This document shows, piece by piece, positions 54,298-63,686 of a stretch of 64,000 nt of DNA. This stretch comes from Halobaculum sp. MBLA0143. GTDB lineage: Archaea > Halobacteriota > Halobacteria > Halobacteriales > Haloferacaceae. Within the stretch, counting starts at the first letter, position 1; each line of letters begins with the position of its first letter. The translations under genes were made by a program, and so were the position numbers. The stretch lies in NCBI RefSeq assembly GCF_041361465.1, contig NZ_JBGKAC010000001.1, positions 2,480,001-2,544,000 of the forward strand, given 5' to 3'. A model generated the notes under the pieces. It was not told the origin of the DNA. It was given only the letters and a program-made list of their open reading frames with translations, and did no database searches.

Positions 54298-56799
54298 TCA
54301 GTTCCGACGGCGGAGCGCGACGAGTGCGGCACCGAGCAGAGCGACAACACCGAGCACGGCCGTGAAGCCGGGCGTGCTGGCGCTGGTCTCAGTCGGCGTC
54401 GCGGTCGGCTCTTCCGTCGCCGTCGCGGTCGGCGTCGGCGAGTCCGTCGGCGTCGGCGTCGCGGTCGGCGTCGGCGTCGGCGTCGCGGTCGGCGTCGGCG
54501 TCGGCGTCGCGGTCGGCGTCGGCGTCGGCGTCGCGGTCGGCGTCGGCGTTGCCGTGGTCATGTTGCCCATGGTCGGCGTCGCCGTGGTCATGTTGCCCAT
54601 GGTCGGCGTCGCCGTCGCGGTCGGCGTGGACTGTGCCGCCTCGACGGTGCCGTCGAACGAGGTCGCCGGCAGGTCGCCGATGTTGGCGTCCGTGTTGCCG
54701 ATGGTGATGTCGTACTCGTCACCCGGGGCCGCATCGGCGAGCTCGTACGTGCCCGTGAACGTGCCGTCCGGCTGGACGGTCACGATCGAGGACTCGATGA
54801 AGCGCTCGCTCGGGTTCCCGGTGGTCTGGAGGCGCACGCGGAACTCCGTGCCCGGTGCGAAGTTGGTCTCACCTTCGACCGTCGCCTCGTCGCTGGCGGT
54901 CACGTTCGACTTCGTGATCTCCAGCGACGGGTCGACCTTGTCGACGGTGTTGTTGATCTCCTCGTCCTCGTCACCGGCGACGAGACCACGGTTGGTCTCG
55001 GCCTCGATGCCGAAGACGACCTCGGACTCACCGTCCGCGATCTCGCTCTTGCTGGAGTCCAGCACGACGTAGTAGGTGTCGTTGGCCGAGTCCGAGACGA
55101 CACCGGTCACGTTGGAGTTGTTCGTGATGTCGAACGTGCTGGCCACGTCGTTCGGATCGACGTCCTGCTCCGTCAGGGTCAGGGAGATGTTCCCCGTGCT
55201 CGTCCCCTTCGTCGCGTTCGTGAACGCAGAGGTGTCGCCGCTCTCAGCCTGGGCGTCGAGCAGGCCCTCGATGCCCTCGACGTCCGCGAGCTGGAGGACG
55301 ATCAGGTCACCCGACGCGACCTGGCCGTCTTCCGTGATCGAACTGCCGATGGCGTCGTTCACAGCCTCGAGGTCGGCAGGCGCACCGCCGGCCGGCGCGA
55401 TCCAGGTGTTCAGCGTCCCCTGGGTCCGCGGCTCGACGACTGCTGCTGCCAGTGCCGGGTCCTCTGCGGCTGCGGACTCGACACGGATGTCGTAGGTGGT
55501 CGCCGCGACGATGTCCGAGACGCCGTTCGTCTCGTTCGGCGTTTCACCACTGGTGAACGTGTCCGGATCGTCGTCGTCACCGTCCGTGACGATGCTGAAC
55601 GCGTCACCAGCGTTACCGGTCGTAGACTCGTACGTGTTGAACGCGACCGTAACCTCACCGTCGCCGTCGTTGTCCTCGACACCGAAGGTGACGTTGTAAC
55701 CGTCACTGTCGGAGCCGAACTGGACATCGGCGTTGTCGGTCTGGTCGAGCGTGACGGTGAACTCGATCACGTCACCGCGCTGGTCACTGAACTCGCTCTG
55801 CGTGAAGCCGACGTCCGCGTCCGGCCGCTGGGACACGACGACGGTATCGGTCTCGATGGACACGCCAGAGTTGACGTCCGTCACGCGGATCGTGTAGTTA
55901 CCTGTGTCCGGCGTAGCGAGGCCAGCCTTATCGAACACGCTGTCCACGTTGGCCAGACCCTGGTTGTTGATGGCGGCGGCGCCGTACGTTCCGACGACGT
56001 CGTCATCGCTGTCCAGCACCTCGACCGTCAGCGGACGATCGACGGTGTCGGTCGTAACTTCGATGTCGACATCCTCGTCCTGGAAGATGTCCGTCGAAGT
56101 TACGTCCTGGAGCTCCAGACCGAGGTCACTCAGCTGGAGTTGTGCGTCGCCGTCAGCGTCGTCCGTGCCGCTGGTGTCGTTGAATTGGTACTCGCCTGAC
56201 GAGAGGTCGTCCGTGTCGAGCACGAAGACCTGGCTAGGCGAGGACGGACCACGCGTCCGGGAGGTTTCTGGGCCTGTGAGGTCGAACGTCTGACCGGAAC
56301 TAGTGAGGACGGCGATGTTCGTCCCGGAGAACGCTTCGAGAGAGTCGTCCGCACCCTCACTGGCGTTGATTCCGACCGGAGCCACCTGGATGGAGTCCGT
56401 CGTGTCGCTGCGTGCGACACTGTCACCGGTCGTCAGGTTGTTCACCGACACCTCGGAGATGTTGGTGTACGTCTGACTAGTGTCAGTGACGGTGAACCGC
56501 GCACCGTCACTGTTGGAGAAGTTCGCCACCTCCGAGCCGGAGAAGGTCACATTGCTGCCGTCGTCGAAGTCGACGACGATCTCCGAACTGGAGTTGAACG
56601 TTGCGTCACTGTTGTTTACCACCACTTCGAGCTGTGGGGTTCCCGTTTCGTCTTGATAGTGTGTCACCTTGTCGATGGTGACCGGCGCGTTCGCCGCCGC
56701 AGCCGCTGCTCCAGAGAACGCGACGGTACCAGCGAAGACGCTGAATACCATCAGCGCTGTCATGAACAGCGCGCGGATCTTCTTCTGTGTACCTGTCAT
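54298..56799 (-). CDS. S-layer-type glycoprotein with PGF-CTERM anchor
   Basis: An 833-residue surface protein. The N-terminus has a basic head and a Sec signal peptide to about residue 36 (MTGTQKKIRALFMTALMVF then AFSGAAAAA). The mature chain is very acidic, rich in Asn-x-Ser/Thr sequons and beta-sandwich repeats (for example VDIEVTTDTVDRPLTVEVLD, VIEFTVTLDQTDNAD). Near the C-terminus a TATPTPTP linker precedes the PGF-CTERM signal TPGFTAVLGVVALLGA-ALVALRRRN, with Pro-Gly-Phe at about 810. ArtA should cleave there. Likely the main cell-wall subunit. The start at 56799 is chosen because the longer frame adds residues without signal character. Confidence 0.93.
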   Translation of the reverse strand: MTGTQKKIRALFMTALMVFSVFAGTVAFSGAAAAAANAPVTIDKVTHYQDETGTPQLEVVVNNSDATFNSSSEIVVDFDDGSNVTFSGSEVANFSNSDGARFTVTDTSQTYTNISEVSVNNLTTGDSVARSDTTDSIQVAPVGINASEGADDSLEAFSGTNIAVLTSSGQTFDLTGPETSRTRGPSSPSQVFVLDTDDLSSGEYQFNDTSGTDDADGDAQLQLSDLGLELQDVTSTDIFQDEDVDIEVTTDTVDRPLTVEVLDSDDDVVGTYGAAAINNQGLANVDSVFDKAGLATPDTGNYTIRVTDVNSGVSIETDTVVVSQRPDADVGFTQSEFSDQRGDVIEFTVTLDQTDNADVQFGSDSDGYNVTFGVEDNDGDGEVTVAFNTYESTTGNAGDAFSIVTDGDDDDPDTFTSGETPNETNGVSDIVAATTYDIRVESAAAEDPALAAAVVEPRTQGTLNTWIAPAGGAPADLEAVNDAIGSSITEDGQVASGDLIVLQLADVEGIEGLLDAQAESGDTSAFTNATKGTSTGNISLTLTEQDVDPNDVASTFDITNNSNVTGVVSDSANDTYYVVLDSSKSEIADGESEVVFGIEAETNRGLVAGDEDEEINNTVDKVDPSLEITKSNVTASDEATVEGETNFAPGTEFRVRLQTTGNPSERFIESSIVTVQPDGTFTGTYELADAAPGDEYDITIGNTDANIGDLPATSFDGTVEAAQSTPTATATPTMGNMTTATPTMGNMTTATPTPTATPTPTPTATPTPTPTATPTPTPTATPTPTDSPTPTATATEEPTATPTETSASTPGFTAVLGVVALLGAALVALRRRN
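54400..54620. repeat. Coding repeats for the Thr/Pro linker of the S-layer gene
   Basis: The plus strand repeats GGCGTCGGCGTCGCGGTC and GTGGTCATGTTGCCCATG units in register. They encode TPTPTA and MGNMTTATPT copies in the linker, so copy-number variation would alter linker length in frame. Confidence 0.8.
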
Positions 56800-56919
56800 A
56801 GTTCGTATTGGGTTGTTGGGCGGCAGACAACACACGTCTCCCCCGTCACGGTCGACCGCGACGAGAGACCCAGACGTAGTGCTGTTGCCATGGGTAGGGG
56901 TACGATGTTGTGCGAACGT

Positions 56920-57106: not shown

Positions 57107-58027
57107 GTGAGCCTGCGAGACTGGATCGCGGAGACGGTCGACCGGATTGCGACCGACGGCGCCTCCGGGGCACGCGAGAGTCTGTACGAACTGTACCTGG
57201 GGGCACTCAGGCGGGGTGCTCCGCTCACGCCGGCCGGATCGTCGGTGTACGACCGCGACTGGGACGTGCTGGTCGTTCTCGACGCTTGTCGGGTCGACGT
57301 GCTCCGGTCGGTCGCCGAGAAGTACGACTGGATCGGCGAAGTGGGAGTCCACCGGTCGCCGGCGAGCTGTTCGCCCGAGTGGCTCGCGGCGACGTTCCAC
57401 GGTGACCACGAGCGGGCGGTCGGTGAGACGGTGTACGTCACCGGGAACCCGTTCAGTGACCGACGGCTCGACCACACGCGACTCCGACGGGTCGACGAGC
57501 TGTGGCGAACGGCGTGGGACGAAGGGGCCGGGACGATTCCGCCCGGGGCGCTGACCGACCGGGCTATCGAGACGATGCGGCGAGACAACCCCGACCGACT
57601 GGTCGTCCACTACATGCAGCCGCACTTCCCGTCTCCACCCGATCCGGTCGGTGAGGGAATCTCACTCCAGGCGTTCGACGAGACCTGGCACTCCCCGTTG
57701 GATGGGCTTCGACGGGGTGAACTCGACTTCGACCGCGTGTGGGCGTCGTACGAGGCGAACCTAGAGTACGTCCTCGACGATGTCGAACTACTCCTGTCGA
57801 ACGTGGACGCAGAGACAGTCGTCCTCACCGCAGACCACGGTGAGGCGTTCGGGGAGTACGGAGTGTACGCCCACCCGTGTGGCGTTCCGGTCCCGGCGCT
57901 CCGGGAGGTGCCCTGGGCCGAGGTCTCGGCGACCGACACTGGGGAGTACCATCCGGAGGAGACGGAGTCGATCGCCGAGCCGACGACCGACACCGAGGAA
58001 CGCCTGGAGAGTCTCGGCTACGTCTGA
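57107..58027 (+). CDS. Alkaline-phosphatase/sulfatase-superfamily protein
   Basis: A 306-residue protein from a GTG start. The core motif VLVVLDACRVDVLR carries the first metal Asp and a Cys at the position where alkaline-phosphatase-fold enzymes hold their nucleophile; TADHGEAFGEYG is the conserved metal site, and YMQPHFPS lies between. The C-terminus is ERLESLGYV, a tail shared with two other superfamily members in this region. There is no signal peptide. A phosphotransferase or sulfatase acting on a glycan lipid precursor is plausible, but not proven. Confidence 0.8.
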   Translation: MSLRDWIAETVDRIATDGASGARESLYELYLGALRRGAPLTPAGSSVYDRDWDVLVVLDACRVDVLRSVAEKYDWIGEVGVHRSPASCSPEWLAATFHGDHERAVGETVYVTGNPFSDRRLDHTRLRRVDELWRTAWDEGAGTIPPGALTDRAIETMRRDNPDRLVVHYMQPHFPSPPDPVGEGISLQAFDETWHSPLDGLRRGELDFDRVWASYEANLEYVLDDVELLLSNVDAETVVLTADHGEAFGEYGVYAHPCGVPVPALREVPWAEVSATDTGEYHPEETESIAEPTTDTEERLESLGYV

Positions 58028-58102
58028 CCGCGTTCGAGCGCCAGCTACCGACGCGACGACAGAGTGAACCGTCGCCGCTGGCCACAGAGTGTTGAACACA
58101 CG

Positions 58103-58684
58103 ATGTCCGACCGAACGCTCGAAGACGTGACCGTCGTCGTCCCGACGGCTCGGGAGGAGCTGACTACTCCCGACACAATCCCCGAGGAGGCGGAGTTGCT
58201 CGTCAGGCGCGACGACGGCCTCAACGTGGCACGCAACGCCGGAGTCGCGGCCGCCGAGCGCGACTGGATCGTGATCGCCGACGACGACATCGAGTTCCCC
58301 ACCGAGACGGTCCGCCGTGTCGTCGACGAGGGAGACCGGTCGACGCTGGCTGGGCTGGCGGACTTCGAGCCGCTCAGATGGATCATCGGACGGCTCATGA
58401 TCTTCCACCGGTCTCTCTGGGAGCGGGTCGGCGGGTTCGACGAGCACCGTCACCACGGGGGAGACACGGACTTCGCAATTCGTGTCGAACGGGCCGGCGG
58501 GACGGTACGACAGCTCGATCGAGATGCCGTTCCACACTACGACGAGGACACTGGAGAGGGGATGACGACGACAGAACACGCAGAGTGGCTGTGGTACCTC
58601 ACGAGGAGACACCCACGACAGTTCGGTCCGGTGGCTGTGAGGCTCGTCGCCCGTGCACTCCGACGTGTCCCCGGCGGGGCATGA
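58103..58684 (+). CDS. Family-2-like glycosyltransferase
   Basis: A 193-residue GT-A-type enzyme. The N-terminal strand VTVVVPTAREE starts the Rossmann-like fold, LLVRRDDGLNVARNAGV is the nucleotide-sugar loop, and the metal-binding DDD motif VIADDDIEFP is visible. WERVGGFDEHRHHGGDTDFAIRVE is the acceptor/ED motif. It is short for the family (usual core about 230) and has no membrane helix. It follows the sulfatase-type gene after 75 bases. Role in S-layer or lipid-linked glycan assembly inferred from neighbours. Confidence 0.85.
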   Translation: MSDRTLEDVTVVVPTAREELTTPDTIPEEAELLVRRDDGLNVARNAGVAAAERDWIVIADDDIEFPTETVRRVVDEGDRSTLAGLADFEPLRWIIGRLMIFHRSLWERVGGFDEHRHHGGDTDFAIRVERAGGTVRQLDRDAVPHYDEDTGEGMTTTEHAEWLWYLTRRHPRQFGPVAVRLVARALRRVPGGA

Positions 58685-58741
58685 CCCCGCTGCGGCACCA
58701 GAACAACAGTCATATGCCCGCTGACTCACCTCCGTCCAGGT

Positions 58742-59785
58742 ATGAGGGTGTGTCTCGTCGGGACACTGCCGGACGCCGGCCGTGAGATCCACACTGGTCC
58801 CGAGCGAACCACTATCGGCCTGGCGGAGGCGCTCGCAGTCCGTGGACACGACGTCGAGGTGCTCGCCGACGAAGGGACATCACAGGCAGTCGCCACCAGT
58901 GCCACGGTACTCCCAGTCACTGCCCCGCCGGGCGTCACTCGGCTGGCTCAGTTCGGGTACCAGACACACCGGGTTCTCACGGCCCACGACTACGATATCG
59001 TCCACGCGTGGCGACCCGTTCCGGGGCTCGACGTCTTGAGTCTTCACAGCGTCGGGATGGTGGCACAAGTCGAGGGGAGGCTCCCGGGAACGTTCTCCTG
59101 GCGGTTCCGCCAGGGGGCACGCGTCGAACGTCTGGCGAAGCGGCTCGCGTCGCGGCGGGCGTCACAGACGATCACGACGGCGCCGTCAAACGCGGCGGAC
59201 GCACGACGGTTCGGCTTCGACACTGACGGTGTGATCCCCGTCGGTGTCTCCGAAGCCTTCCTGACGCCGGACCGTTGCGTCGACGAGCAACAGGTGTTGT
59301 GTGTCGGTCGAATCGAACCGCGAAAACAACAGCAGTTCGTGGCCGAGAACACCCCTGACGACTACTCGCTTCGGCTCGCTGGACCGTCCGGTGACCGGGC
59401 GTACACGGAGCGTGTCACCGACCTCACGGACGGCTGGGAGGGGGCGCTCTCCCCAGACGCGCTGGTGGACGCGTACAGTGAGGCAAGTGTGTTCGTGATA
59501 CCGTCCGTCTTCGAGGGGTTCGGCCTGACGGCTGTCGAGGCGATGGCGGCCGGGACCCCAGTCGTCGCCGCAGACACGTGTGGGGTTGCCGACATCGTCG
59601 CTGAAGAAGACGTCGGCGCGGTCTTCGAGTTCGGTGACGCCGACGACTACCGCCGCGCGCTCGAAGCGGTCGTCCGGCGACGAGACGAACTCGCCGAGCG
59701 TGCTCGGCGTCTCGTCCGTCGCCAACTCACCTGGAATGAGATTGCACAGTCCTACGAGCGGGTATACCAGTCCGTGTCGGAGTGA
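58742..59785 (+). CDS. Family-4-like glycosyltransferase
   Basis: A 347-residue GT-B enzyme. The N-terminal half has MRVCLVGTLPDAGREIHTGPE and IVHAWRPVPGLDVLSLHS. The C-terminal half carries VLCVGRIEPRKQQQF, FVIPSVFEGFGLTAVEAMAAG (the EX7E donor-binding motif) and TPVVAADTCGVADIV. TATA-like TCATATGC near 58711 is about 28 bases before the ATG. Likely adds a sugar to a glycan precursor. Confidence 0.93.
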   Translation: MRVCLVGTLPDAGREIHTGPERTTIGLAEALAVRGHDVEVLADEGTSQAVATSATVLPVTAPPGVTRLAQFGYQTHRVLTAHDYDIVHAWRPVPGLDVLSLHSVGMVAQVEGRLPGTFSWRFRQGARVERLAKRLASRRASQTITTAPSNAADARRFGFDTDGVIPVGVSEAFLTPDRCVDEQQVLCVGRIEPRKQQQFVAENTPDDYSLRLAGPSGDRAYTERVTDLTDGWEGALSPDALVDAYSEASVFVIPSVFEGFGLTAVEAMAAGTPVVAADTCGVADIVAEEDVGAVFEFGDADDYRRALEAVVRRRDELAERARRLVRRQLTWNEIAQSYERVYQSVSE

Positions 59786-61120
59786 CCCGGTTGGTCGCCG
59801 ACGGTGCCCGGGACCGGTAGCCGGCACAGTACAGCTCCGCCGTCGCCCACGATCCGACGGAGGCGGTGGCCAGTGCTGCGACGAGTAGTTCAGTCGACCA
59901 CATCCACCCGGGTAACACGAACAACAGTCCGTCGACGAGGAGCGACGGAAGGAGCGACTTGATCCAGATCACGACCCGTGAGGTCACGGGAGCGTCGGCG
60001 CCGCGGTCGAGAGCGGCGCCACTGGTCGCGTCGGCCGACGAGCCGCGCAGTCCAGCCCGTGACGCCGCCGGACCGCCCGCACTCTCCTCGCCGGTTCCGA
60101 GTCGCTCCGCCTCGTAGGGAGTGTCGACCGGAGTCGACCACACCACCTCGCCGTCCGTGTTCAGTTCGAGAACCCGGGTCCCGTTGGAGTCCGTCACCAG
60201 CGTGTGGCCGTTCGGCAGTCGGTCTGCGTCCCGCGGCCAGCTCGGCTGGCTGTCGCGCCACGACCACGTCCGGGTCCACTCACCGCCGCGGCGTTCGTAC
60301 TCGACGACACGGTTGTTCTCGGAGTCCGCGACGATCACTGCGGGGCCGCCACGGGACGGAAGGATGTAGTCCGGATTGTGTTGCTCGCACAGTCGAGTGT
60401 GATTGCCGTCTGTCCCGAGGCTCCACGGCTCGTCGAGCCCGCTGTCCCTGTCGAGGACCACGACCTGATCTACGTTCCGTGGACTCGCCACGATCCGGCT
60501 GTCGCCGAGCCACTCCACGTCGTTCAGGTGCGTCCAGTCGCGGAGGAACGTGCCACCGTCTCGTCGGTCGTAGTCCGCACGGGACTTGTACGACCACACG
60601 GTCAGTTCCCGTTCCGTGTCGTAGATTCGGATACGGTTGTTGATGTCGGCGATCAGAACGTGGGTGTCGTCGATGCGGTCGAAGTCGTGTCAGTCGGCCC
60701 GTCGTTGTGCGGCGAACCGCTCGAACACTGTTCGCTCCCCGGTCGAGGTGTTAACCCGAACGAAGACGGCGTCGGCACACGGCCCGGTCCCTGTCGGACG
60801 GTCGACGCTCCTGTCCTGGCGACGAACTCGATAGTCGCCGTCGTTCTGGGGACGGGGTCGACATCGAAGTACTGTCGGTACCGTTCCTCGTAGTAGCCGA
60901 CTTCTCCGTCGCTGCCGACGACGAACAGGGAGGCGTCCGCCCCCTCTCGTGGCGATGTCGAGACAACAGTCGGGTTCGGTGCCGTCTCCGCCACCACCGA
61001 CCCGTTCGCCCCCTGGTATCGGTCGACGATGTTCGGCGACGAGAGCGAGGCGACGCTCAACTGGACCGCCGCCGCGACCAGCACGACCACGAACAGCCCA
61101 CGCAGGAGTGACCGTCTCAT
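59727..61120 (-). pseudogene. Arylsulfotransferase-like gene, frameshift plus nonsense mutation
   Basis: A single disrupted minus-strand gene. The 5' part (from 61120: MRRSLLRGLFVVVLVAAAVQL, a signal anchor, then FVVGSDGEVGYYEERY and TTATIEFVARTG) is in one frame. Its continuation, with CADAVFVRVNTSTGERTVFERFAAQ, lies in another frame, so one base was gained or lost near 60780-60840. In that new frame a TGA at 60690-60692 stands where a Trp codon is expected (RAD-stop-HDFDRIDDTHVLIAD). The frame then runs on through beta-propeller-like repeats (WPRDADRLPNGHTLVTDSNG, VLELNTDGEVVWSTPVD) and a C-terminal membrane segment. The architecture resembles haloarchaeal arylsulfotransferase-like proteins. 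The 3' end overlaps the glycosyltransferase and is uncertain. Confidence 0.75.
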
Positions 61121-61165
61121 CGTCCGGTTACGATGACCTTCGGTGCGTCACTGTTTCGGGTTAGA

Positions 61166-62611
61166 TCAGGCGTAACCGAGCTCTTCCAGGCGGCGCTGGG
61201 TCGCTCGGTCGACGGAGCCGGTGTCCGACAGCCGGACACCCCGAGACTGGCGACTCTCGAAGGCGGTCGCAACGCGGTCGGCGGCGTCGTCGACTCTCGT
61301 CGCCCGACTCGTCTTCGCGTCCCAACATCGCACCGTCGCCGCCTCCGAACGCCAGGTCACGTCCTTCTGTACGGCGTCACCGTCGTCACGGTAGACGGCA
61401 CGTGCGTCACCGTTGAACCGCCACAGGTCCTCGCAGTACCGGCTGGCGCGTTCCTCCATCGGCTCTTCGAGTCCGTGTGAGGAGGCGACGACCGGACCGT
61501 CGGGACAGAACGTCTCCGCCGTCCAGTCGCCGTCCAGCGACCGTTCGACGGCAGTCGGGAACCGAGTGAGCGTGGCCGGGGACGCAATCCGTCGCCCGTC
61601 GGCACCCCCCGGTGGCCGGACGACGAGCGGAACGTGCAGCAACGCCTCGTGGATGCCCGCGCCGTGGGCGGCGACCCGTGCGCCGGGACGGACGCGACTC
61701 TGCTCGCCGAACCCCTCACCGTGGTCGGCAGTGACGACCACGAGCGTGTCGTCCAGTTCACCACGCTCCGAGAGCGCCCCGATCAGCCGTCGAAGCTGCG
61801 CGTCCATCTGGTGAATCGTCCCGTCGTACAGCCCTTCTAAGGCGCGTCGTTGCCACCAGGGCCGTCGACCGCCGTTGAACTCCCACACCTGGTCACCCAT
61901 GCTGTCCTGGAGGTCACGCAGTCGGTCACCGCCCCACTGGTCGTCGGGTGCCGCCGGCTCGTACGGGAGGTGGGCGTCCATGAAGTTGACACAGGCGGCC
62001 CACGGACCACTCGTCCCGTCGACCCAGTCCAACAACAGATCGGTGTAGACCGACGCCGGCGTGCTGGCGCTCAGAGCGTCCGGGAGGTACTGCGGGTAGT
62101 CCCACGCGAGTTTCGTTACGACACCGTTCGCCAGCGACTGGACGGGGTGATCGTCCTCGAGGCACCGGCGGAGGTACGCCGCGTACTGCCCTTGTCCTTC
62201 GGAGAGAACGAAGTTACTCGGGTCGATGGCGTCCGGGTACGGGAGGTTACGGGCGCCTTCCACCGTGTCGAAGGCGTCCTTCAGCCCGACTGCCATGTCG
62301 GTGATCCAGGTGTTCTCGGAGAAGACGCCGGTGCGGTACCCCTCCTCGTCCGCGAGCCGCTCGAAGACCGTGTGCCCAGGCTCGATGGCGTACTCCGCAC
62401 GGGTCAGCCCGTGTTCGACTACGTCGTACCCAGTGAACATACTGGTGTGACTCGGGAGGCTCCACGTCCCCGGAGAGCGTGCCTGGTCGTAGACGACTCC
62501 CGTCTCGGCGAACGACTCCAGAAACGGGGTCGTCTCGTGCTCGTGGCCGTAGAGGCTCGTGTTGCCGGCACGGACACTGTCGAGCACGACCAAGAGGACG
62601 TTCGGTTTCAC
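61166..62611 (-). CDS. Sulfatase-superfamily protein
   Basis: A 481-residue sulfatase-fold enzyme. It opens VKPNVLLVVLDSVRAG, the metal Asp strand, and has TADHGEGFGEQSRV as the second metal site and VNFMDAHLPYEP. At the place of the formylglycine motif C/S-x-P-x-R it has TWSLPSHTSMFTG, where Ser occupies the Cys/Ser position and His replaces Arg, so the classical formylglycine activation is unlikely. The C-terminus is RRLEELGYA. GTG at 62611 is preferred because it sits at the family start and follows TGTATGTA by about 27 bases; an ATG at 62638 is the alternative. Confidence 0.85.
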   Translation of the reverse strand: MKPNVLLVVLDSVRAGNTSLYGHEHETTPFLESFAETGVVYDQARSPGTWSLPSHTSMFTGYDVVEHGLTRAEYAIEPGHTVFERLADEEGYRTGVFSENTWITDMAVGLKDAFDTVEGARNLPYPDAIDPSNFVLSEGQGQYAAYLRRCLEDDHPVQSLANGVVTKLAWDYPQYLPDALSASTPASVYTDLLLDWVDGTSGPWAACVNFMDAHLPYEPAAPDDQWGGDRLRDLQDSMGDQVWEFNGGRRPWWQRRALEGLYDGTIHQMDAQLRRLIGALSERGELDDTLVVVTADHGEGFGEQSRVRPGARVAAHGAGIHEALLHVPLVVRPPGGADGRRIASPATLTRFPTAVERSLDGDWTAETFCPDGPVVASSHGLEEPMEERASRYCEDLWRFNGDARAVYRDDGDAVQKDVTWRSEAATVRCWDAKTSRATRVDDAADRVATAFESRQSRGVRLSDTGSVDRATQRRLEELGYA

Positions 62612-62765
62612 ACGAGCCCGGACGGCAGACACGTACATACACCTTGTGTCTGTCGCGTCGACGACAGAGCGGCCCCGACTCCGCCTGGCGACGACGACCG
62701 AGCGGTCGAGACGGTGGAGTGGCCATCCAGAGACACTAAGAGGGACCCTCGGCTACGAGCAGCCG

Positions 62766-63686
62766 ATGACACTCGTGGTCCTCGCGTTGGACGCGCTCGA
62801 CACCGAACTCGCGGCCGACTTCGGCGGCGGGTCGTTCTCGCTCACGTCACACGGCCACATGGAGTCTGTCGCCCACATGTTCGACGACCGGCCACACACC
62901 GGAGAGGTGTGGCCGACAGTTGCGACCGGTCTCCACCCACGAGAACACGGGATCACCGGCGGCGGCGAGAGCGAGTGGAGCAACCCCGTCGTGGAGCTCG
63001 GATCACGCCTGATCAACAAGTTCGACACCCAGATGAGCACCCGCAACCGACTGGGAGACATCGTCGAGGAGGTGACGAACGCGACCTGGGAGATGGCGAC
63101 CGTCACCGACCCGACGTTCTTCGACGGGCCCGGGCGGGTCGTCCACAACTGGCCGGGAGTCCACCGAAACGAGGAACTTCACCGAATCTGGGACGTGATC
63201 GAGGAGGGAATCCGGAGCGGCGAGGACAACATGCCACGCGAGGAGTACGAGCGCCGGGTGCGGGGCATCGCCGCAGAACAGTTCGGCTGGGTCAGAGAGA
63301 TGCTGAACCACGACACCTCGTTGGTGGCCGCACACATCCACGTCCTCGACGCGCTCGGACACGCGTACTCCGACGACAGAGAGGGGATGCGGCGCGCCTA
63401 CGAGTGGTGTGGCGCCGAGGTCGACGCCGTCCGTGAGGCGATGGCAGAAGACGACGAACTGCTCGTTCTCAGCGACCACGGGATGGAGACGACCTGGACG
63501 GACGGCCAGAACCCACACGGGACACACTCCTGGCGGTCGTTCTCCGCGAGCACGTTCGAGACGCGCCCCGAGGACGTCCACGACGTGCGAGCGTGGGTAG
63601 AAGACCACGTCGACGACACCGAACGGACGGAGTCGGAACTCGACCTCCCCGAAGAACAGCTTCGTCAACTCGGCTACGTGGAGTGA
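62766..63686 (+). CDS. Alkaline-phosphatase-superfamily protein (phosphodiesterase-like)
   Basis: A 306-residue protein. MTLVVLALDALDTEL is the metal Asp strand, GEVWPTVATGLHPREHG is the threonine-nucleophile region typical of nucleotide pyrophosphatase/phosphodiesterases, HIHVLDALGHAYSDD the metal His/Asp site and LLVLSDHGMETTW the second metal site. It ends EEQLRQLGYVE. It overlaps the flippase start by one base (63686), indicating co-transcription. Confidence 0.85.
   Translation: MTLVVLALDALDTELAADFGGGSFSLTSHGHMESVAHMFDDRPHTGEVWPTVATGLHPREHGITGGGESEWSNPVVELGSRLINKFDTQMSTRNRLGDIVEEVTNATWEMATVTDPTFFDGPGRVVHNWPGVHRNEELHRIWDVIEEGIRSGEDNMPREEYERRVRGIAAEQFGWVREMLNHDTSLVAAHIHVLDALGHAYSDDREGMRRAYEWCGAEVDAVREAMAEDDELLVLSDHGMETTWTDGQNPHGTHSWRSFSASTFETRPEDVHDVRAWVEDHVDDTERTESELDLPEEQLRQLGYVE

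Follow-up and report, generated by a model that had tools for sequence, protein, structure and literature searches.

The genome of Halobaculum sp. MBLA0143 encodes, within 6.6 kb, three phosphatase/sulfatase-fold proteins that are otherwise different in sequence and close with the same Leu-Gly-Tyr tail. The question raised by this locus is whether such a tail is a signal belonging to the locus, a structural element belonging to the enzymes, or a coincidence. The genes are situated in a stretch of 64,000 nucleotides of contig NZ_JBGKAC010000001.1 (positions 2,480,001 to 2,544,000), referred to here as the window; positions given below are those of the window and the three proteins are named after their lowest coordinate as 57107, 61166 and 62766. 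The open reading frames and the three C-terminal ends claimed in the first-pass annotation have been confirmed (Table 1).

Protein 61166 matches the PF00884 profile with 112.9 bits, over the curated cut-off of 25, and 62766 matches PF01663 with 42 bits against a cut-off of 23. In the ORF list the reading frame of 62766 spans 62559-63686 and opens with a GTG further upstream; the ATG at 62766 is the plausible start. All three proteins retain, each within its own family, residues typical of the active site in the alkaline phosphatase superfamily. The 57107 family conserves Asp59, Asp243-His244, His256 and Ser84/87/89, of which the Asp and His residues constitute a probable metal site. No Pfam or NCBIfam family match covers the tail.

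Table 1. Sulfatase-fold genes of the window and the elements at their C-termini
Position	Strand	Feature	Details
57107..58027	+	Compact sulfatase-fold protein (57107)	306 aa; PF00884 24.3 bits, just below the cut-off of 25
57998..58024	+	C-terminal tail of 57107	ERLESLGYV; preceded by a variable acidic linker
61166..62638	-	Sulfatase-fold protein (61166)	490 aa; motif W-S-L-P-S-H with Ser as the nucleophile; Cys and Arg absent
61169..61195	-	C-terminal tail of 61166	RRLEELGYA; predicted helix 478-486
61214..61240	-	Linker of 61166, residues 467-475	Predicted disordered, pLDDT <50; leads from the canonical fold to the tail helix
62766..63686	+	Type I phosphodiesterase-like protein (62766)	306 aa; PF01663
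63651..63683	+	C-terminal tail of 62766	EEQLRQLGYVE

The searches of this genome gave eight sulfatase-fold proteins (seven PF00884 matches and 62766), four of which are encoded far from the window locus, and each of the eight has an LGY or IGY end. The earlier description of three copies in one locus as striking is not supported, since every homologue found in the genome carries the tail. A tag specific to the locus is rejected on the same ground. Chance is also rejected: LxxLGY ends occur on seven of the 714 unrelated nonredundant ORFs of the collected loci, where 0.2 would be expected from motif density. Three copies within 6.6 kb are what a locus tag or chance would have in its favour; against the tails on the other homologues and on 40 of the 41 Ser/Thr-type proteins of Halobacteriales described below, and the 0.2 ends expected by chance, the probability of either is negligible.

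Six of the seven background ORFs are PAPS_reduct/CysD-like, and in these proteins the LxxLGY end is a family feature in itself. Genome-wide, only two further stop-terminated proteins end in LxxLGY followed by one or two residues. One of them, a PAPS_reduct-domain protein (G000:C1:1145179; L064:1501-2553, minus strand), ends in MERLRDLGYM; micrarchaeal CysD-like proteins likewise end in LRSLGYM, and this LGYM end is probably the helix end of their own family. The other is a ribbon-helix-helix-regulator-like (RHH-like) protein of 70 residues (G000:C1:2674652; L073:653-865, minus strand) with the end ITDQLRDLGYLE.

A set of 71 nonredundant sulfatase-fold ORFs has been collected from 60 Halobacteriales genomes using profile seeds stripped of their tails, and the 67 long ORFs among them were sorted according to the active site. 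The tail is found on 40 of the 41 proteins with a Ser/Thr nucleophile and without the motif Arg, and on none of the 26 proteins with the Cys (formylglycine) motif; conversely, all the 40 tailed proteins have Ser/Thr and no Arg. Protein 61166, which has S-L-P-S-H, also departs from the formylglycine-sulfatase motif C/S-x-P/A-x-R. The absence of the tail from all the Cys-type proteins rejects a universal sulfatase feature. Uniform conservation across sulfatases at any locus, together with a lack of effect on removal, had been named in the first-pass annotation as the observation that would undo its proposal; the tail is indeed conserved regardless of locus, but it is not uniform across sulfatases.

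The 57107 and 62766 families, collected by searching 194 genomes, carry the tail on 36/36 and 35/35 members respectively. Scoring of the tail in the haloarchaeal alignment, as had been proposed, gives 100% conservation of Leu(-5), Gly(-1) and Tyr(0) and 92-100% of Leu(-2) in these two families, with a variable linker; the tail of haloarchaeal proteins is usually only 1-2 residues from the protein end. A single-protein scan of genome contigs for relatives of 62766 gave no match.

On a tree of 166 rows the tail needs 6 changes, against about 44 with shuffled labels, and the Cys type forms one clade (99). The 40 tailed proteins hence do not represent 40 independent events. As judged from the sequences the tail is inherited, in agreement with the homology previously considered possible. 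Three 57107-like proteins (L052:3278-4171, L040:44-1069 and L033:27-1229) end at VPWLEL without linker and tail and are natural cases of tail loss; each of their genes adjoins a tailed sulfatase-fold gene.

Outside haloarchaea, a DNA scan of 84,980 genomes for TLPSHA(S/T)xxTG, blind to the tail, has revealed at least 118 stretches, those listed belonging to Acidobacteria, Deltaproteobacteria, Planctomycetes, Myxococcota, Micrarchaeota and others. Among the matches listed there are 99 complete TLPSH proteins, in which the motif lies nine residues or fewer from the end (42), is internal, mostly 320-360 residues past the nucleophile (32), or is absent, mainly in Micrarchaeota and some Planctomycetes (25). 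All six internal-motif proteins that were scanned have TPR repeats C-terminal of the motif. In the aligned archaeal and bacterial rows the invariance of Gly-Tyr equals that of the catalytic residues. The TPR-fused Ser/Thr-type 'sulfatases' of Acidobacteria, Deltaproteobacteria and Planctomycetes share the TLPSH motif and the LxxLGY helix ending the catalytic module; unlike the window proteins, they continue after the helix with a linker and the TPR domain. The earlier remark that similar tails occur in bacterial sulfatases is in line with these matches, the element being either terminal or internal just ahead of a TPR domain. Since the internal copies precede TPR repeats, the element closes the catalytic module and its place at the protein end is secondary; it belongs to that module as its final part, as opposed to being a C-terminal signal tied to a single locus.

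The AlphaFold2 model of 61166 (26 sequences, mean pLDDT 73) has the canonical fold up to residue 466 and a nine-residue helix, 478-486, running into L487-G488-Y489, the last block having a moderate pLDDT of 76. The model of a bacterial protein, L088 (mean 86), has a helix at 431-439 followed by L440-G441-Y442, also of moderate pLDDT (74); this helix is flanked by two linkers of pLDDT <50 and lies upstream of the TPR helices. The DSSP helix ends, 486 in 61166 and 439 in L088, are those of predicted models. The possibility raised earlier that the tail is the last strand or helix of the family is supported, as the predicted helix closes the catalytic module even where further domains follow.

Solved sulfatases align with 61166 only over residues ~4-473, and over residues 8-471 with a best Z of 34.4 (rmsd 2.9, 360 residues), so that the tail extends the known fold. 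The formylglycine sulfatases of PF00884 (type I, S1) have the same canonical fold and differ from 61166 in their Cys/Ser-x-Pro/Ala-x-Arg motif; the tail helix is an extra of 61166 that all the 26 Cys-type haloarchaeal proteins lack. L-x-x-L-G-Y fits the sequence pattern of the Schellman hydrophobic triangle, X-x-x-X-G-X, which is fully buried in 87% of cases (PMC9951308). A Schellman loop of the hydrophobic-triangle type caps the helix with a C' glycine that is surrounded by hydrophobic residues in the C3, Ccap and C'' positions (PMC9951308); by sequence, Leu484, Leu487, Gly488 and Tyr489 of 61166 would map to C3, Ccap, C' and C''. The Schellman loop is a local structural motif, unlike the protein families that carry the tail.

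We consider it likely that the tail is a homologous structural element terminating the catalytic domain in the Ser/Thr-nucleophile branch of the alkaline phosphatase superfamily and in two allied small families. The canonical fold would be followed by a flexible, mostly acidic linker and by a short helix, [E/D]-[R/Q/H/K]-L-x-x-L, with Gly-Tyr as its stop. The stop would be a Schellman C-cap, its hydrophobic triangle made up of the C3 Leu, the Ccap Leu and the C'' Tyr, with the C' Gly between them. The hydrophobic face may dock back onto the enzyme's own core and so close the module, a docking which we infer, since the tail has a pLDDT of 74-76 and none of the 50 best solved structures matched to 61166 spans it. 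The closing helix could then have a role in stability and folding. The natural relatives that lack the tail, namely the three 57107-like proteins and 25 of the 99 TLPSH proteins, count against this reading. As LxxLGY also ends unrelated proteins (CysD-like, RHH-like), some of the sharing among the three families could be convergent.

Enzymes with the same end have been characterised in Halobacterium salinarum. VNG1056C (Agl30) and VNG1057C (Agl31) of the aglB cluster are alkaline-phosphatase-like N-glycan sulfotransferases, as shown by deleting them and by the glycan sulfation that Hfx. volcanii gained on their transfer (PMC11980604). The cloning primers given there, translated here, encode the ends HLEDLGYL (VNG1056C), LEELGYT (VNG1057C) and KELGYIE (VNG1063H). 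Agl30 and Agl31 were active even though their tags followed the tail immediately; Agl30 is located in the membrane fraction and Agl31 in the soluble cytosol. They resemble the window proteins in their alkaline-phosphatase-like core and in their haloarchaeal glycan-assembly locus with three such genes per cluster. The LxxLGY end is also common to both, compared here by the primer-encoded ends, and is not diagnostic by itself. A primer 24-mer has no match in 26 genomes of the family, nor, with 3 mismatches, in 13 genomes of the genus.

The tail might instead be a short linear signal, spread across several enzyme families, for docking to a partner such as a glycan-assembly complex or a sulfate-donor enzyme. 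Three divergent families with the same end, in which Leu, Gly and Tyr are 100% conserved after a variable acidic linker, would agree with this, and so would the position of the haloarchaeal tail so near the end, the frequent adjacency of the tailed families in genomes and the LxxLGYM end of CysD-like sulfate-activation proteins. The activity and differing location of Agl30 and Agl31, given the tags right after the tail, argue against a free C-terminal signal, however; a membrane-targeting tail is disfavoured by the differing location of these two tailed proteins. The bacterial element, moreover, is often internal, at the boundary of catalytic and TPR domains, and the tail occurs on proteins of unlinked loci. 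The docking signal suggested in the first-pass annotation, like a C-terminal localisation signal, is thus disfavoured, and we hold it to be unlikely. That LxxLGY is simply a good end for a terminal helix, gained independently by unrelated proteins, would be in keeping with the generic nature of the Schellman hydrophobic-triangle pattern (PMC9951308) and with its presence on PAPS_reduct/CysD-like and RHH-like proteins. Such ends are nevertheless found on only about 1% of other ORFs, nearly all of one family, and the tail tracks the tree and is fixed in each of the three families, so that convergence as a general explanation is quite improbable.

By association with Agl30 and Agl31, the tailed enzymes encoded in glycan-assembly loci probably have glycans as substrates and work as sulfo- or phosphotransferases or as hydrolases, and not as formylglycine sulfatases. 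The non-formylglycine branch appears to include these two proven sugar sulfotransferases. It is conceivable, though doubtful, that the LxxLGY end-helix and the TLPSH-type site define a broad, mis-annotated archaeal and bacterial branch of glycan-sulfating (or phosphorylating) transferases, of which Agl30 and Agl31 would be the first characterised. Micrarchaeal TLPSH genes lie beside CysD-/CysN-like and glycosyltransferase genes, which fits the use of activated sulfate and supports the transferase reading, though their proteins are tailless.

No description of an LGY tail has been found in the open-licence literature, and the conserved end-helix of the Ser/Thr-type branch is seemingly undescribed so far. 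As to locus the tail is ordinary; it can serve as a marker of non-formylglycine 'sulfatases' that are probably mis-annotated, many of which are possibly sulfo- or phosphotransferases. Many archaeal and bacterial genes are annotated as "sulfatase" or "arylsulfatase" without a formylglycine motif. A C-terminal marker that can be seen at one glance and is present on two proven sulfotransferases would separate both branches; it would help annotators to drop the sulfate-removing label and steer experiments to the opposite reaction.

The tailed genes of the window have two glycosyltransferases and one arylsulfotransferase-like gene among their neighbours. Beyond the window, the ORFs read as flippase-like, phosphomannomutase-like and a second arylsulfotransferase-like gene, followed by a fourth tailed sulfatase-fold gene, and the surroundings read as a glycan-assembly locus. 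The arylsulfotransferase-like gene of the window (59727-61120, minus strand) is apparently broken somewhere between ~60600 and ~60790, with two ORFs in different frames; an intact relative (window-equivalent 68084-69691; L008:12085-13692) adjoins another tailed sulfatase-fold gene. Beside the glycan locus (54298-56835, minus strand) lies the gene of a secreted protein of 845 residues, probably S-layer related, in which a DUF7827 domain and the PGF-CTERM sorting motif are present. In other genomes 57107-type and 62766-type genes are often neighbours (G167:C23, G118:C1, G014:C1, G075:C17), and genes of the 57107 type also stand in tandem, as many as four in a row. The micrarchaeal TLPSH genes adjoin CysD-like (PAPS_reduct) and CysN-like GTPase genes at L074, L107, L108, L123 and L143, and also at L076; these loci often include a glycosyltransferase and are possible sulfate-activation and glycan-sulfation cassettes.
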